Below, in pieces: positions 1,508-8,458 of a stretch of 64,000 bases of DNA. How positions within the stretch are numbered: the stretch's first letter is position 1; every line of letters starts with the position of its first letter. Source of the DNA: Nitrospirota bacterium (GTDB lineage Bacteria; JACPQY01); contig JACPAV010000033.1 in the NCBI GenBank assembly GCA_016180645.1, positions 1 to 64,000 of the forward strand, read 5' to 3'. The position numbers were made by a program, and so were the translations under genes. The notes under the pieces are model-generated. The model worked only from the letters and a program-made list of their open reading frames with translations, made no database searches and was not told where the DNA came from.

Positions 1508-4500
1508 ATGAAAAGCTTCGGCGCCTTTGGTCGCACCGCACTCTTGTGTCTCCTTTTCGCGCCCTTCTCCTTTCGGGAAGTTTTGGCGGCGAGCGAGGGG
1601 ATGGCCGCATTTGCAAGCGGAACGAGCACTACCCCCAACCACCGTACGTGGAACTCAACATTCAATAATGACTTGGATGCGGCCACGGCCACGGCCAACG
1701 CCGCGGCGGGGACCATCGAATACTCCGTACTGCGCCGCTGCCCGGTGCGTCGCGAATACATCCTGGGCACGCTCGATTCGGCCGGCACGATCACGATTCA
1801 AACCACTTCTGACGACGGAGCAACTTGGACGGCCCGGGGGTCCTGCTCCACCTGCCAAGGCACGACCAACGACGCCTTCGGCGGGCTCGACATCGCCTAC
1901 GAGCAGTCCTCCGGTGAAGCCCTTATCGTTTTCGAAAATGCTACCGGCAACAACAAGCTCATCCGGTATGACCGGTGGGACGGCACCACGTACACGTCGG
2001 CTTCCACCCTCACCATAACGGGCGGGAACACTACCACGCGCTGGGTTCGCCTCAAGTCCCTTGCGGGAAGTGATCGCATTGCTCTTGCGGTCGCCGGCGC
2101 GAACAGCACCTTGAATGTCTCCGTGTGGAACGGCTCGACATGGGAGAGCACCTCGACCAGCCTGACGGCTTCTCTGGCCGCCGTGACGGTTAGGGCGTTC
2201 GATATCGAGTTCGAACAGTCTACGGGGGACATCTTGGTGGTGTACGGCTCGGGTACCACGCTGAGCCACCACACTTGCCCCGCTCCAGCCGCCTGCACTT
2301 GGAGCGGCGCCACCTCAAACAGCCCCTTCAACCCGGGCGTGGCCGTCAACTGGGTGGAAATGGCCGCCGATCCGGCCACGGACGATATCGCCCTGATCGC
2401 GCATATGAACGGAACCGGCTGCACAACCGCAACCTGCCGGGCTCAACATGACCTTTGGACCGGCGCCGGTTGGGTAGGGGGAACGACGGCCGACACTTCC
2501 GTCAACGTCACGTCCGCCAGCAGCCCCAATATCCCGGTCGCCGTGGCCTGGGAGAAAAGCAGCAGCACCGCCCTTTTCGCCTTCGTAGATGGAAGCTCGA
2601 CCACTGCGGTGGACTACGTTACGGCCGCCGGCTGCTCGGGCGGTTGCACATGGACCCCCGCGACCGGCACAAACCTCACCAACGCCTCAACCACCACCCA
2701 AACCTGGCCGGGAGCAATACCAACGGTCCAGCTCGTCGGCAGCCCCAACGAGAATCAGATCTACCTCCTGGCGGAGAGCGTGGATACGGCCGCACCGGCC
2801 GACTATGAGCTCCAAGCCCTCCTCTGGAGCGGCGGGGCCTTTTCCCAAACCGCCACGCAAAGCCAAGTCTCCATCGACGTTGACTCCAACGCTTTCGCGC
2901 CGTTCAGTTTCGCGTGGTCCTATCCCTTCTTTCAGCAGGCCAACTACCAGTGGTTTCTGAACCAGAGCACCCCGGTGCTGAATCCGGCCGACCCGGGGGA
3001 TCAGTTGGCCACGGACAATAACGTGGCTACGGGCGTCTACACAACGAGAGAAGTGAGGCTCCGCGTCAACTTCACCGCCCGAGGGGGGACGCTGGCATCG
3101 GGGAAAATCCTGCGGCTCCAGTACAGCAGCGATGCGACGAGTTGCACCACCGGCACATGGACCGACATCGGGAGCACCGAGACAACCAACATGATCTGGC
3201 GCGTGATCGGTTCCGGCGGTGTCCTGACGGATGAAACCTCGGTTACGGCCCAACGGGTGGACGGTTCAACCCTGAATGGGCTGTACACCGAGTCGGGAGA
3301 CAGCACGACCGCCGCGTCCTACTCCCTGGGGGACACCCCGGAATGGGACTGGAGCTTCACCAACTTCCAGGCTCCTCCGAATACGGGATATCGATTCCGA
3401 ATGCTCGAAGTGGTCGGCGGAACCCCCACGGTTACCGGGTCCTATTCGTCGAACTGCCCGCAGCTTTCGACCACGGATCCGGACGGATTGGTGGCGTACG
3501 CAACGACCTCGGGCGCCAACGAACCCAAGTATAAGAACTGGACGGGCACCCAGTTCGATGCGTCGGAGTCCGATGCCGGGACGCAGACGAGCACCATCCG
3601 ATATGTGGTGCAGAAAACAGCCAAGGTGGCGAGCAACCTCAAACTCATGGGAACGCTCGACAGCACCGGCGCCATCACCTTCCGCTATTGGAACGGCGCC
3701 TCCTGGGCCGCCCCCGGCGGGAGCTGTACGTGCAGCACCTCGGCTGCGAACAGCGCCTATCGCGGGTTCGATATCGCCTTCGAGTCCAAATCAGGCGAAG
3801 GGCTCATCGTCTGCGATGACGGGACGGCCAACGACAGTGTCAACTACTGCACCACCACCGCAGGCGGGGCGACTCTCTCGAACGCCGGCTCGCTGACCGT
3901 TTCCACCGGCTCGGCCAACGCCAACTGGATCAGGCTCGAGGCCAGCCCGGCGGCCGACTACATCGTGATGGGCGTGTTGAACTCCAATACCACCGCCACG
4001 GGCGCGGTCTGGAACGGGAGCAGTTGGGTGACCAACACCACCTTTTCGGACACGACCAGTTCAGCTACCAACGAGGCCTTCGACGTGGCATGGCACCGTG
4101 TCACCAGCCGAGCCATGATCGCATACGGCACCGGCACTTCTACCAACTACTCCATCTGGCAGTCCGGAACATGGGGAACGCCGGCGGCGGCAGGTAACCC
4201 GGGAGCTGCCGTGAGTTGGCTTCAACTCGATGCGTCCCACGTGAGCGATTACATCCTGGAAGTCACGGTGGACGGCGGCTCGGACGTCGAAACGTTTGCC
4301 TGGAGCGGGAGCGCTTGGAGTACGCCCGGGAGTTGCGCCGATGCAGCCGCCAGCCTGCTCGCCAATCGGTCGATCGATGTGAAATGGGAAACCGTCAGCA
4401 GCGACGCCCTGATTGCCTATGTGGATGCGGCGGGCGGCGGAGGAAACGACAAAGTCACCTACTGGACCTACACGGAGGGTGGGAGTTGCGCGGCGGCGGC

Positions 4501-7500
4501 CACAATCGGAACATTCACGGACGTGCAGACGGTGCAACTCCGGAACTCGCCCGACGGCGACGAGATCATGCTCCTCGCGTTGGACAGCACGAGCGCCATC
4601 AAGGGCTTCATCTGGAGCGGCAGCGCGTTCTCCACGCCTACCGGCAGCGCTCTAACGGCGGCGGCCTCGGCGGCCGCATACGAACCGTTCATGTACGCCT
4701 GGAATGCCGGAGCGCCCACTCTCGTCGAACTCGTCTCCTTCGGGGGGTACAGCAGGAGCCGTGGGCTTCAGCCCGCGTCCGACGGTCCGGTAGGCGCAGG
4801 CTTTATGCCTGCGTCCGAAGACGCACCCGTAAAGGGTGCGGCTACCAGCGCTGGGGGATACGAAGTGGTCTTGGAATGGGAAACGGCGGCGGAACGCTCC
4901 AATGCAGGTTTCTACCTGCATCGGAGCGAGACGCGAGACGCGGGACGCAAGACGCAGGTCAATCAGAAGATGATCCAGGGCCTTGGAACAAGCGCCCGCG
5001 GCAAGAAATACGTCTTCGTCGACGACCTCTCCGATCTCATCACTCATCACTCATCACCCATCACGATTCAGTACTGGCTCGAAGACGTCGAATTCAACGG
5101 CACCCGCACGATGCACGGCCCGGTGGAAGTCCACGTCGGCCTCGATTCGGACGGCGATGGGATGCCGGATGATTGGGAACGCGCGTACGGATGCGCCTCC
5201 GCACTCGGTCGGTCTGCGATTCGTAGGGGCGGATCTTCAGATCCGCCCTCTTGGGGAGACCGTAGGGGAGCATCTTTAGATGCTCCTTCTCTGGGAGGGT
5301 CTAAAGACCCTCCCCTACAATGCCTCGATCCCCTCGTCGCAGACGCCGACGGCGACGCCGACGGAGATGGGATCAGCAACCTCCTCGAGTACCTCAACGG
5401 CACCTCGCCCACCGCCATCGAAAGCGGGGTGTGGATCACGGACCTTTCCGCGTTCAAATCTAGGGGTCAGGGGTCAGGGGCCAGGGGCCAGGAACTAGGA
5501 ACCAGGAACCAGGAACCACCCGCTCACCCTGAGCCCGTCGAAGGGTGGCGGGTGACCAAAGAAGACTCCACCGGTATCGAGATGGAATGCACCGGAGAGG
5601 GTTGCTCCACTCCGGCCCGCCTCGCCGTCCCGCCGGGCGCCAAACTCCACGATTCTCCTGGTGTCGACGCGATTGCCGAAGGCATCTTCCGGGATCAAAC
5701 CATTCTGCGAATAGCTTCAGCGGACAAGGAGGTAACCGGCATTCTCCGTGCGCGTCTGGAATTCGCAGGTCCCCACGTTCCGGTAGCCGCAGGCTTCAGC
5801 CTGCGTCCCGAGCGCACCCTGAAGGGCGCGGCTACCCCGGATCTCACAAGTCTCCTTGATTCCGTCGTCCTGAACAAGTTCCGTTGGGCGTTTGTCAGTA
5901 GGGGAGCATCTTTAGATGCTCCCTTCAACGCGGGCGGATCTAAAGATCCGCCCCTACAAGGCGGAGAGTGGCGATCTCCCTCGCGCTCGACCGGAACATC
6001 GCTGAAAGTTTCCGTGACCGAAACCGGCGTCTACAAAATCACCCGCGACGACATCGCCGACGCCGGCCTCGATCCGAATCTCTTCGATCCGGAAAAGGCG
6101 CAGGTGTGGGTTCCTGGTTCCTTGTTCCTAGTTCCTGGTGGAGAACGATTACAGCCCGTGAATGTTCAAGCGGACGGTGGGGCATTGTATTTCCTTGGGG
6201 AGCCCGCCGACTCGAAATACACCCGCACGAATGCGTATTGGCTTCTCTTGGATCCGTCGAACGTCGAACGTCGAACGTCGAACGAAATCCTGGATTTGAC
6301 TCAACCGGGACCGGCCGACGAACCGTTCCAAGACGCGCTTCGGCTTGATCCCTCTGCTTGCGTCCTGCGTCCTGCGCCCTCCAGGATGGAGCAAGTGCCG
6401 CGAGAGGGCAGGAGCCCGGAGCGGCCGTCCTGCGCCCTCCTTTATTGGCAAGAAATGCCCGGCCCCTCAGACGCGGAACGGTTCTTCTTCGCCCCCGTCC
6501 TCAAGGACGGCGATTCACACGACTACGAGTTCGAGCTGCCTGAACTCGCGAGCAACGAGCAACGAGCAACGAGCAACCTCCAAGTAGGGCTTACCCTTCT
6601 CGGACTGGCCGAATCGAACGTGGCCCAGAGCCACAAAGTCGAAGTCTCGCTGAACGGTCTGACTCTTGGCGAAATGACATGGACCGGCCGGGATCTCTTC
6701 CACTCCTCACTTCGCACTTCGCACTCCGCACTTCGCACCGGACAAAATACAATGACCCTCAAGGTGCTGCTTGCGGAGGGCGCCCAGTTCGATCAAGTTC
6801 TGCTCAAAGGTGCGACGATTCCATACTATCGACCTTCGCGCCTCGCGCTCCCGGTCGTGAACCCATCACTCATCACCCATTACGCATCACGCGGCCTCTT
6901 GGATGCCACCAATCGGGCCGACTACATCATGATTCTGCCGGAGGCAGGGGTCGGCAAATCTGTAGGGGCGGGTCTTCAGACCCGCCCGGAGGGAGCATCT
7001 GAAGATGCTCCCCTACAAGAAGCCCTTCGGCCGCTGGTCGAATACCACGAATCCCACGGGCTCACCGTCAAAGTCGTTTCGCTGGATCAGATCTATGATG
7101 AATTCGGGGCCGGTCTCGCCACGCCGCACGCCATCAAGAATTTCCTCCATTTCGCATTTCACAATTGGCAATCTCCGAAACCCTCCTACGTCCTCCTCGT
7201 CGGCGATGCCTCATACGACTACAAGGGGTATGAGGATGGGGAACAAGTTCCTGGTCCCTCGTTCCTCGTTCCTAGCTATCTTCTCTATACCCCCTTGGGG
7301 GGTGAGGTGCCTTCAGACGCTTGGTTTGTTTCTTTCGATGGAGGGGCGCCCTTCGACAAGCTCAGGGTGAGCGGAGAACAAACCGCTCGTGGTGAGCTTG
7401 TCGAACCACGGGGCAACGAGATCGATCTCTTTCCCGATATGGCAATCGGGAGATTGCCGGCGAGGACTCCCGACGAACTCTCAGCAATGGTGGACAAGAT

Positions 7501-8458
7501 CCTTCACTACGCGGACGACGATCCGGAATCGAATTGGCGCCGGAACGTGCTGCTGGTGGCGGACAACTTTCAATCCGATTTCGAAGGGGTTTCGGAAAGC
7601 CTCTTCGACCTTGCGCCGCCCAGTCTGCTCCTCACCCGAGGCTACCTCTCGCTCCTTCCCTCCGCGAGCGATCTGTCCGGCGCGATCGTCAAGGAGATCA
7701 ATTCGGGCGCCTCCCTCATCAACTACCTGGGCCACGGCTCCGCCGAGTTCTGGGCCGCCGAGAAAGTCTTCGGCTCCGCGCAACTCCCTGCGCTGGAAAA
7801 CCTGGGCCGATATCCTTTCATTTCCACGTTGACCTGTATCAACGGTTACTTTGTCTTCCCGCCGGAGCAGGAGTTTGAGGCCATGGCCGAAGAGTTCGTT
7901 CGGGCCCCCGGCAAAGGTGCGGTGGCATTTTTCGCTCCCAGTGGAATGTCCAGCCCCGCCGTTCACGGCGCGCTCAACCGCGCGCTCTACAAGGCGATCA
8001 CGCAGGACCGAGTCAATCCGATCGGCGCGGCGATTCAGAAAGCCTATCTCGATGTGGCTTCGCAGGTCAGCGCAGGTCGATGGGAATACGTCCCCCAGAT
8101 GTTCGTCCTCTTCGGCGACCCCGCGATGGACTTGGTGCTTCCGACCTCCGATGCCCCCGCGACTCACGACGCACAACGGACGACTGACGATTCCGGTTGC
8201 GGCTGCGCCCACATCGGCGCGCCGGCGGGATGGGCGGGAGGGCTGACGGGGTTCTTTGGACTTCTGGGCCTCTACGCGGTAACGCGGATTCTTCGTCGCC
8301 GGCGCCGAAGGTCTTGGCCTAAGTGCAAGTTCATGCGTATGTGCGGATTCGCAAACGGTGGCGCGGACCCTGAAGGGCCCGCTACAGAGCTCAAATCGTG
8401 TAGCCGAGCCTTCAGGCTCGGCAAGTCAACCCGCACAATGCGTTGTGCGGGTACGTAG
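1508..8458 (+). CDS. Giant secreted C25-family (gingipain-like) cysteine protease with MYXO-CTERM-like tail, riddled with repeats
   Basis: The 2,316-residue frame begins with a signal peptide (about residues 1-27, ending VLAA). Residues about 30-485 and 656-1065 are two related beta-rich repeats of the propeller type with recurring WNG-W and LDS-G-I patterns, separated by a further beta domain. A Ca-binding DSDGDGMPDDW motif lies at 1213-1223. From about 1500 the sequence follows the C25 architecture (LKVSVTETGVYKI), and the peptidase domain spans about 1800-2220 with the catalytic pair His2076 (YLGHGS) and Cys2110 (TCINGYF). The C-terminus carries GCGC (2230-2233), a hydrophobic helix (about 2242-2259) and six Arg (2263-2268), the pattern of MYXO-CTERM sorting signals. 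It is probably exported, anchored and later released. The frame contains at least seven palindromic insertions and about eleven heptamer arrays, all read through. A 48-residue tail after the Arg run is repeat-derived. No close start competitor is seen. Confidence 0.88.
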   Translation: MKSFGAFGRTALLCLLFAPFSFREVLAASEGMAAFASGTSTTPNHRTWNSTFNNDLDAATATANAAAGTIEYSVLRRCPVRREYILGTLDSAGTITIQTTSDDGATWTARGSCSTCQGTTNDAFGGLDIAYEQSSGEALIVFENATGNNKLIRYDRWDGTTYTSASTLTITGGNTTTRWVRLKSLAGSDRIALAVAGANSTLNVSVWNGSTWESTSTSLTASLAAVTVRAFDIEFEQSTGDILVVYGSGTTLSHHTCPAPAACTWSGATSNSPFNPGVAVNWVEMAADPATDDIALIAHMNGTGCTTATCRAQHDLWTGAGWVGGTTADTSVNVTSASSPNIPVAVAWEKSSSTALFAFVDGSSTTAVDYVTAAGCSGGCTWTPATGTNLTNASTTTQTWPGAIPTVQLVGSPNENQIYLLAESVDTAAPADYELQALLWSGGAFSQTATQSQVSIDVDSNAFAPFSFAWSYPFFQQANYQWFLNQSTPVLNPADPGDQLATDNNVATGVYTTREVRLRVNFTARGGTLASGKILRLQYSSDATSCTTGTWTDIGSTETTNMIWRVIGSGGVLTDETSVTAQRVDGSTLNGLYTESGDSTTAASYSLGDTPEWDWSFTNFQAPPNTGYRFRMLEVVGGTPTVTGSYSSNCPQLSTTDPDGLVAYATTSGANEPKYKNWTGTQFDASESDAGTQTSTIRYVVQKTAKVASNLKLMGTLDSTGAITFRYWNGASWAAPGGSCTCSTSAANSAYRGFDIAFESKSGEGLIVCDDGTANDSVNYCTTTAGGATLSNAGSLTVSTGSANANWIRLEASPAADYIVMGVLNSNTTATGAVWNGSSWVTNTTFSDTTSSATNEAFDVAWHRVTSRAMIAYGTGTSTNYSIWQSGTWGTPAAAGNPGAAVSWLQLDASHVSDYILEVTVDGGSDVETFAWSGSAWSTPGSCADAAASLLANRSIDVKWETVSSDALIAYVDAAGGGGNDKVTYWTYTEGGSCAAAATIGTFTDVQTVQLRNSPDGDEIMLLALDSTSAIKGFIWSGSAFSTPTGSALTAAASAAAYEPFMYAWNAGAPTLVELVSFGGYSRSRGLQPASDGPVGAGFMPASEDAPVKGAATSAGGYEVVLEWETAAERSNAGFYLHRSETRDAGRKTQVNQKMIQGLGTSARGKKYVFVDDLSDLITHHSSPITIQYWLEDVEFNGTRTMHGPVEVHVGLDSDGDGMPDDWERAYGCASALGRSAIRRGGSSDPPSWGDRRGASLDAPSLGGSKDPPLQCLDPLVADADGDADGDGISNLLEYLNGTSPTAIESGVWITDLSAFKSRGQGSGARGQELGTRNQEPPAHPEPVEGWRVTKEDSTGIEMECTGEGCSTPARLAVPPGAKLHDSPGVDAIAEGIFRDQTILRIASADKEVTGILRARLEFAGPHVPVAAGFSLRPERTLKGAATPDLTSLLDSVVLNKFRWAFVSRGASLDAPFNAGGSKDPPLQGGEWRSPSRSTGTSLKVSVTETGVYKITRDDIADAGLDPNLFDPEKAQVWVPGSLFLVPGGERLQPVNVQADGGALYFLGEPADSKYTRTNAYWLLLDPSNVERRTSNEILDLTQPGPADEPFQDALRLDPSACVLRPAPSRMEQVPREGRSPERPSCALLYWQEMPGPSDAERFFFAPVLKDGDSHDYEFELPELASNEQRATSNLQVGLTLLGLAESNVAQSHKVEVSLNGLTLGEMTWTGRDLFHSSLRTSHSALRTGQNTMTLKVLLAEGAQFDQVLLKGATIPYYRPSRLALPVVNPSLITHYASRGLLDATNRADYIMILPEAGVGKSVGAGLQTRPEGASEDAPLQEALRPLVEYHESHGLTVKVVSLDQIYDEFGAGLATPHAIKNFLHFAFHNWQSPKPSYVLLVGDASYDYKGYEDGEQVPGPSFLVPSYLLYTPLGGEVPSDAWFVSFDGGAPFDKLRVSGEQTARGELVEPRGNEIDLFPDMAIGRLPARTPDELSAMVDKILHYADDDPESNWRRNVLLVADNFQSDFEGVSESLFDLAPPSLLLTRGYLSLLPSASDLSGAIVKEINSGASLINYLGHGSAEFWAAEKVFGSAQLPALENLGRYPFISTLTCINGYFVFPPEQEFEAMAEEFVRAPGKGAVAFFAPSGMSSPAVHGALNRALYKAITQDRVNPIGAAIQKAYLDVASQVSAGRWEYVPQMFVLFGDPAMDLVLPTSDAPATHDAQRTTDDSGCGCAHIGAPAGWAGGLTGFFGLLGLYAVTRILRRRRRRSWPKCKFMRMCGFANGGADPEGPATELKSCSRAFRLGKSTRTMRCAGT
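4757..4848. repeat. In-frame palindromic repeat insertion in the C25 gene
   Basis: Three hairpins in series: GTGGGCTTCAGCCCGC, GGCGCAGGCTTTATGCCTGC and GCACCCGTAAAGGGTGC. The host protein reads LVELVSFGG before it and EVVLEWETAAERSNAG after it, a pairing usual in such surface proteins without the intervening segment, so the block looks inserted. Confidence 0.8.
4928..4956. repeat. Heptanucleotide tandem repeat (GAGACGC-type, about 4 units)
   Basis: Units GAGACGC, GAGACGC, GGGACGC, AAGACGC run head to tail inside the C25 gene and encode ETRDAGRKTQ. A 7-bp unit is not a multiple of three, so gain or loss of one unit would shift the frame. Confidence 0.8.
5036..5065. repeat. Heptanucleotide tandem repeat (CATCACT-type, about 4 units)
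   Basis: Units CTCATCA, CTCATCA, CTCATCA, CCCATCA follow one another inside the C25 gene and are translated as LITHHSSPIT. Confidence 0.8.
5218..5321. repeat. In-frame palindromic insertion splitting a Ca-binding motif in the C25 gene
   Basis: Three hairpins: GGGCGGATCTTCAGATCCGCCC, GGGGAGCATCTTTAGATGCTCC and GGGAGGGTCTAAAGACCCTCCC, with the usual GTAGGGG / CCCCTAC joints. The sequence falls between DDWERAYG (ends residue 1228) and LDPLVADADGD (starts 1273), which are contiguous in ordinary proteins of this kind. Confidence 0.88.
5462..5517. repeat. Heptanucleotide tandem repeat, 8 units (GGGGTCA to GGAACCA)
   Basis: Eight consecutive 7-bp units: GGGGTCA x2, GGGGCCA x2, GGAACTA, GGAACCA x3. 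Total 56 bp. It is translated within the C25 gene as a Gly/Gln/Arg/Glu-rich linker (GSGARGQELGTRNQEP). Confidence 0.92.
5526..5546. repeat. Short palindrome ACCCTGAGCCCGTCGAAGGGT in the C25 gene
   Basis: ACCCT and AGGGT arms surround GAGCCCGTCGA. It is related to one arm of the larger TTCGACAAGCTCA palindrome at 7349-7411 and encodes HPEPVEGW. Confidence 0.65.
5783..5836. repeat. In-frame palindromic insertion (GGTAGCCGCAGGCTTCAGCC type)
   Basis: GCAGGCTTCAGCCTGC followed by GCGCACCCTGAAGGGCGC, flanked by GGTAGC / GCTACC. It is the same module as at 4757-4848 and 18115-18297. It encodes PVAAGFSLRPERTLKGAAT within the C25 gene. Confidence 0.82.
5899..5958. repeat. In-frame palindromic insertion, two hairpins
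   Basis: GTAGGGGAGCATCTTTAGAT and its complement, then GGGCGGATCTAAAGATCCGCCC and CCCCTAC. The outer GTAGGGG / CCCCTAC ends pair with each other. It encodes SRGASLDAPFNAGGSKDPPL. Confidence 0.88.
6110..6138. repeat. Heptanucleotide tandem repeat (GTTCCTG-type, 4 units)
   Basis: GTTCCTG, GTTCCTT, GTTCCTA, GTTCCTG inside the C25 gene, encoding VPGSLFLVPGG. The unit is the reverse complement of the GGAACCA-type array at 5462-5517. Confidence 0.85.
6257..6284. repeat. Heptanucleotide tandem repeat (TCGAACG x4)
   Basis: Four identical TCGAACG units inside the C25 gene, translated as SNVERRTSN. Confidence 0.9.
6357..6381. repeat. Heptanucleotide tandem repeat (TGCGTCC-type, 3 units)
   Basis: TTGCGTCC, TGCGTCC, TGCGCCC inside the C25 gene, encoding ACVLRPAPS. 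Confidence 0.7.
6548..6577. repeat. Heptanucleotide tandem repeat (GAGCAAC x4)
   Basis: Four exact GAGCAAC units inside the C25 gene, encoding ASNEQRATSNL. Confidence 0.9.
6700..6738. repeat. Heptanucleotide tandem repeat (GCACTTC-type, 5 units)
   Basis: CACTCCT, CACTTCG, CACTTCG, CACTCCG, CACTTCG in the C25 gene, encoding HSSLRTSHSALRTG. Confidence 0.85.
6862..6892. repeat. Degenerate heptanucleotide repeat (CATCACC-type)
   Basis: CCCATCA, CTCATCA, CCCATTA, CGCATCA inside the C25 gene, encoding PSLITHYASRG; same family as 5036-5065. Confidence 0.7.
6959..7016. repeat. In-frame palindromic insertion at the start of the C25 peptidase domain
   Basis: GTAGGGGCGGGTCTTCAGAC and its complement, then GGGAGCATCTGAAGATGCTCCC and CCCTAC. 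It falls between YIMILPEA and EALRPLVEYH, so a conserved part of the peptidase domain is interrupted by about 20 extra residues. Confidence 0.88.
7247..7275. repeat. Heptanucleotide repeat (GTTCCTC-type, 4 units)
   Basis: GTTCCTG, GTCCCTC, GTTCCTC, GTTCCTA inside the C25 gene, encoding VPGPSFLVPS; same family as 6110-6138. Confidence 0.75.
7349..7411. repeat. In-frame palindrome TTCGACAAGCTCA ... TGAGCTTGTCGAA
   Basis: A 13-bp perfect inverted repeat separated by about 27 bases. It encodes PFDKLRVSGEQTARGELVEP, between WFVSFDG and NEIDLFPDMAIGRLPA of the C25 peptidase domain. A half-like copy lies at 5526-5546 and a diverged one near 8484. Confidence 0.88.
8159..8193. repeat. Degenerate heptanucleotide repeat (ACGACTC-type, about 5 units)
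   Basis: GCGACTC, ACGACGC, ACAACGG, ACGACTG, ACGATTC just before the GCGC sorting signal of the C25 protein. Confidence 0.65.

Follow-up and report, generated by a model that had tools for sequence, protein, structure and literature searches.

Palindromic and heptameric repeats accumulated in frame within a C25 protease gene of a Nitrospirota bacterium

A single uninterrupted open reading frame of 2316 codons, encoding a secreted PorU/gingipain-like C25 protease of 2316 amino acids, carries 15 repeat blocks between positions 4750 and 7412, amounting to about 0.8 kb in total and confined to the second half of the gene. The gene occupies positions 1508–8458 on the forward strand of the window, by which we mean the whole stretch of 64,000 nucleotides that was analysed (contig JACPAV010000033.1, positions 1 to 64,000). 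The blocks range from 27 to 107 bp in size and comprise GTAG-tagged REP palindromes of two families, palindromes of a third family, and 9–11 arrays with a period of 7 bp; none of these repeats is found in the first half of the gene, and further REP palindromes lie in its 3' tail. We consider it probable that insertion is widespread, through REPs mobilised by RAYTs and through a separate process that generates heptamers, and that purifying selection retains those inserts that are stop-free, preserve the frame, and lie in tolerant loops.

Family A consists of GTAGGGG-headed hairpins, mostly arranged as inverted dimers, and is represented in the gene by three REPs at 5216–5322 and by inverted dimers at 5896–5962 and 6960–7019. 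Family B, headed by GTAGCCGC/GTAGGCGC, contributes a cluster of palindromes of the GTAGSCGCAGGC type at 4750–4855 and GTAG REPs at 5776–5840, and family C, composed of CCCTTCGACAAGCTCAGGG palindromes, contributes a CACCCTGAGCCCGTCGAAGGGTG palindrome at 5520–5546 and a CCCTTCGACAAGCTCAGGG / GTGGTGAGCTTGTCGAACCAC pair at 7344–7412. The period-7 arrays are built from the units GACGCGA (4925–4949), CTCATCA (5034–5065), TTCCTGG (6107–6140), CGTCGAA (6253–6286), GCGTCCT (6355–6382), CGAGCAA (6547–6579), CTTCGCA (6701–6738) and GTTCCTC (7248–7276), together with two adjoining arrays at 5459–5520, of GGGGTCA/GGGGCCA and then GGAACCA, and a degenerate array related to CTCATCA at 6859–6892; all of these coordinates refer to the forward strand. 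Nine arrays pass a strict scan, and the splitting of 5461–5520 into two and the inclusion of the degenerate 6859–6892 bring the count to about eleven, the number given in an earlier note on this DNA. The palindromic blocks also lie where that note put them, the one at 8359 (8359–8424) belonging to the 3' tail, past the conserved protein and outside the region conserved in a paralogue. The segment SVGAGLQTRPEGASEDAPLQE is an example of a peptide predicted to be encoded by REP or heptamer DNA.

The Pfam Peptidase_C25 domain spans residues 1835–2209 (7010–8134, forward strand) with an E value of 3.6e-83 and a score of 280 bits against a cut-off of 23. As the earlier note had claimed, the frame is open throughout and the catalytic residues His2076 and Cys2110 are intact, occupying alignment columns that are at least 90% conserved and are invariant across a 16-sequence alignment. 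The protein resembles PorU and gingipain C25 proteases in its catalytic domain with His and Cys, and the fold of the C-terminal half of the paralogue is matched best by gingipain RgpB and PorU; it differs in its N-terminal half and has a sorting-like C-terminal tail. Assignment to PorU, the T9SS sortase, was dropped, as the match to NCBIfam NF033707 scores 204.8 of the 420 bits required, and the MYXO-CTERM sorting signal TIGR03901 falls slightly under its cut-off (18.3 against 20 bits). The end of the conserved protein is Arg-rich, and positions 8327–8458 form a 3' tail beyond it that the paralogue lacks. The gene may have been modified at this end. An out-of-frame TAA is present at 8320, and the tail with its palindromes extends beyond a Cys-rich, MYXO-CTERM-like end (8320–8458). 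At the end of the upstream open reading frame, a 9-bp tandem repeat at 1193–1225 encodes a Lys/Asp-rich tail, KKDKKDKK.

The paralogue, in the same genome (G000:C2:78389-85330), is colinear with the window gene throughout and has hardly any of the blocks, which identifies them as insertions. This copy, whose protein is 54% identical to that of the window gene across the C-terminal half, served as the comparison for want of close orthologues, no match having been found in one genome of the same family and none in two scans of named genomes; it is distant, and junctions are unreadable to the base. The palindrome cluster at 4750–4855 is mostly missing from it, and it has inserts of its own: where the window gene holds the CTCATCA array it has a REP dimer, and where the window gene holds the three REPs it has an 8-bp array, so that the same loops have taken different repeats in the two copies. 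At a third place, corresponding to 4925–4949, a GACGCRG-type array is common to both. The paralogue is of equal length at the 6701 heptamer block, which is thus not a simple added insert and may have overwritten native sequence. Identity between the two genes at codon positions 1, 2 and 3 is 0.62, 0.70 and 0.37 (716 codons of the C-terminal half), a pattern of purifying selection showing that both copies have evolved as proteins. Together with the largely empty sites in the paralogue, this supports the proposal that repeats were inserted without loss of frame.

The family-A pattern GTAGGGGNGNNTCTTNAGANNCNCCC occurs in 255 copies genome-wide, and its reversed control in none; among the other genomes searched, one of the same family has 12 copies, another has a single copy, and the rest have none. 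The location of repeats was examined in a 1.24 Mb sample taken in stretches, about a quarter of the genome, with 1016 genes called by a simple hexamer-based script, such that intragenic and intergenic totals are approximate. In this sample 153 of 178 GTAG-REPs are intergenic and 22 are intragenic, eight of the latter in the window gene, and REPs are mainly intergenic on the rest of the contig as well, in line with the earlier note, which placed repeats of this type elsewhere in the window mostly at gene ends. The elements fit the published definition of GTAG REPs, with a GTAG next to a short imperfect palindrome, a high copy number, a mostly intergenic location, and the formation of inverted dimers. 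There are seven Y1 transposase genes in the genome, and two RAYTs are flanked by cognate REPs: that at C5:35110 (L049:14773-15903 = G000:C5:34773-35903) is embedded in 13 family-A REPs, and a second, at C5:105800, is adjoined by four family-B REPs. A RAYT embedded in its cognate REPs is an arrangement termed a REPtron. The first of these genes probably gave rise to the GTAGGGG repeats, and REPs, both singletons and inverted dimers, would most likely be mobilised by such resident RAYT (Y1/HUH) transposases. A 1756-residue RCC1-repeat protein that adjoins a RAYT (L053:6277-11544, minus strand) carries two REPs and two heptamer arrays.

Period-7 arrays number 75 in the 1.24 Mb, compared with at most 19 for every other period from 4 to 21, an excess far beyond chance; 30 are inside genes, nine of these in the window gene. 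As dispersed tandem arrays of 7-bp units they resemble STRR-type repeats. Their units recur, with 101 identical unit pairs compared with 2.5 for random units, and are related to one another, 35 of 43 distinct units falling into one network of single changes (shuffled units give a mean of 8 and a maximum of 21); many include CTC/GAG. An exact 21-mer search located CTCATCA and ATCTCAA in four unrelated genomes of about 290 (loci L090, L092, L096, L118, L120 and L121), mostly inside long open frames. Genic and intergenic arrays are equally degenerate, with periodicities of 0.846 and 0.849, and their length classes in genes and intergenic DNA show no clear frame signature in the 1.24 Mb sample. 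This class is the least explained part of the finding. It is conceivable, if on balance doubtful, that the arrays represent a distinct class of spreading element rather than ordinary slippage, related heptamers being written into unrelated bacteria as tracts of 3–5 copies that would enter coding genes, including those for tRNA-modification enzymes, cheaply as stop-free tracts readable in any of the three frames; 7 and 3 have no common factor, and a heptamer array without stops is for this reason open whichever frame is read.

All 30 genic arrays are free of stops on the sense strand, compared with 18 of 30 on the antisense strand and roughly one in two intergenic arrays on any one strand. Given the frames in which each block is open and odds of one in three that its length fits, the probability that 15 blocks of random phase, orientation and length would all be open and in frame is approximately 1e-11, which points to purging and not luck. 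On the explanation that we prefer, two independent genome-wide processes, one adding REP palindromes and the other period-7 arrays, would insert short DNA broadly across the genome; inserts that shift the frame or bear stops would cost the cell the protein and be purged with it, and the survivors would be stop-free on the sense strand, a multiple of three in net length, and outside the catalytic core. The blocks would then be accumulated tolerated passengers, not functional domains, with loops and inter-domain linkers of the secreted protease presumably tolerating the added peptide. Such tolerance is the best supported of three options raised earlier: when the protein of the window gene is modelled with AlphaFold (mean pLDDT 69), seven of the nine C-terminal-half blocks fall on segments of pLDDT below 50, and most blocks overlap predicted disorder; the heptamer blocks at 6547 and 6701 are predicted to form strand or helix with moderate to high pLDDT, and in the model these count against loop tolerance.

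Similar inserts are found in housekeeping enzymes. MnmG (L038:3621-5618) has three arrays, one of them inside a 36-residue insert that is missing in Escherichia coli; MnmE (L039:13322-14740) has an 8-residue array insert directly after DTAGLR; and GcvT (L053:4187-5569, minus strand) has a 60-residue insert of several family-B REPs, placed precisely between residues that are neighbours in Bacillus subtilis GcvT. The process thus extends beyond secreted proteases. These in-frame inserts rule out the idea that secreted proteins alone are affected, and the requirement for secretion that had been attached to the tolerance option is not needed.

The window gene is a true density outlier, with 2.5 repeats per kb as against 0.07 in other genes of at least 1000 residues, from which it differs about 35-fold, and an intergenic mean of 1.2. 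Tolerance alone does not predict a density above the intergenic mean, and this excess keeps alive a further account, in our judgment an unlikely one, in which existing repeats or local DNA features such as hairpins and replication stalling draw in more REPs and heptamers, so that targeting is combined with tolerance. The densest 3.7 kb of the gene, with 18 elements (4.9 per kb), ranks first in the 1.24 Mb, and only a RAYT-linked array with 16 comes near, the next window having 8; the paralogue is also raised, sharing second rank among genes by the number of internal REPs; and outside the window gene 22 of 66 heptamer arrays lie near REPs, above a random mean of 10. Set against such a hotspot, a search found no RAYT on the contig of the window gene, none of these repeats lies in the gene's own first half, and intergenic DNA is itself constrained, which makes its mean an imperfect measure of the neutral rate.

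It is much less probable that selection favours the repeats as a means to diversify or phase-vary a surface protease, with a change of one 7-bp unit shifting the frame and acting as a switch. Nine period-7 arrays in one open reading frame for a secreted protease are suggestive in this respect, and heptanucleotide phase variation is reported elsewhere (PMC8262952, PMC13001214), but the arrays here are short and no less degenerate than intergenic ones, and similar arrays occur in MnmG and MnmE, where switching makes little sense; for diversifying selection, which the earlier note had offered as another option, we found no positive evidence. A decaying pseudogene or assembly artefact, left open by chance, is scarcely credible, for although there is a single genome assembly in 65 contigs, and the out-of-frame TAA and the tail following the conserved protein suggest that the 3' end has been disturbed, the gene has 2316 stop-free codons despite about 15 inserts, intact catalytic residues and a coding-type substitution pattern, and its repeat copies diverge from one another, unlike assembler duplications.

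The gene is an extreme example, open to checking, of mobile repeats turned into protein sequence: it has some fifteen tolerated inserts, most of which are missing from a relative in the same genome. For MnmG, MnmE and GcvT, solved structures supply exact reference lengths for the inserts. The heptamer arrays, whose units recur and are related, form a poorly described class, and their origin can be tested in this genome. Precedents are already known in intragenic REPs and in the palindromic elements of Rickettsia, although the process is milder there. A 2013 study (PMC3733652) described GTAG REPs and their RAYT/TnpA-REP transposases, covering also REPs within genes and insertions into modular proteins; the present elements share with these REPs the GTAG head, imperfect palindromes of 20–30 bp, more than 100 copies, inverted dimers, a RAYT within its REPs, and a mostly intergenic distribution with some copies in frame in open reading frames, including those of modular proteins. 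In that study there are single or dual insert sites per open reading frame, with clusters encoding up to 82 amino acids, whereas the window gene has about 15 blocks drawn from REP families A and B, family C palindromes, and heptamers. The Rickettsia palindromic elements (RPEs; reviewed in PMC10969869) are the classic in-frame palindromes, and the repeats described here are like them in being inserted in frame and tolerated in unrelated protein-coding genes; RPEs are about 150 bp long, and the REPs and heptamers of this genome are 27–107 bp with up to 15 in a gene, so that they work in an RPE-like manner but are not RPEs. Heptanucleotide repeats include the cyanobacterial STRRs and the G-rich heptamers of Xanthomonas and Nostoc (PMC4692102), with which the present arrays share dispersed short tracts of 7-bp units that are partly intragenic. 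The same source describes heptameric repeats as over-represented in bacteria but little studied, with no detailed literature focused on them, and the G-rich family as under-represented in coding regions; here the unit types number at least 43, single changes connect most of them, and many lie in coding DNA. What is newer in this genome is the repeat load, the mixture of classes, and the recurrence of heptamer units related by single changes, two of which are also present in unrelated genomes.
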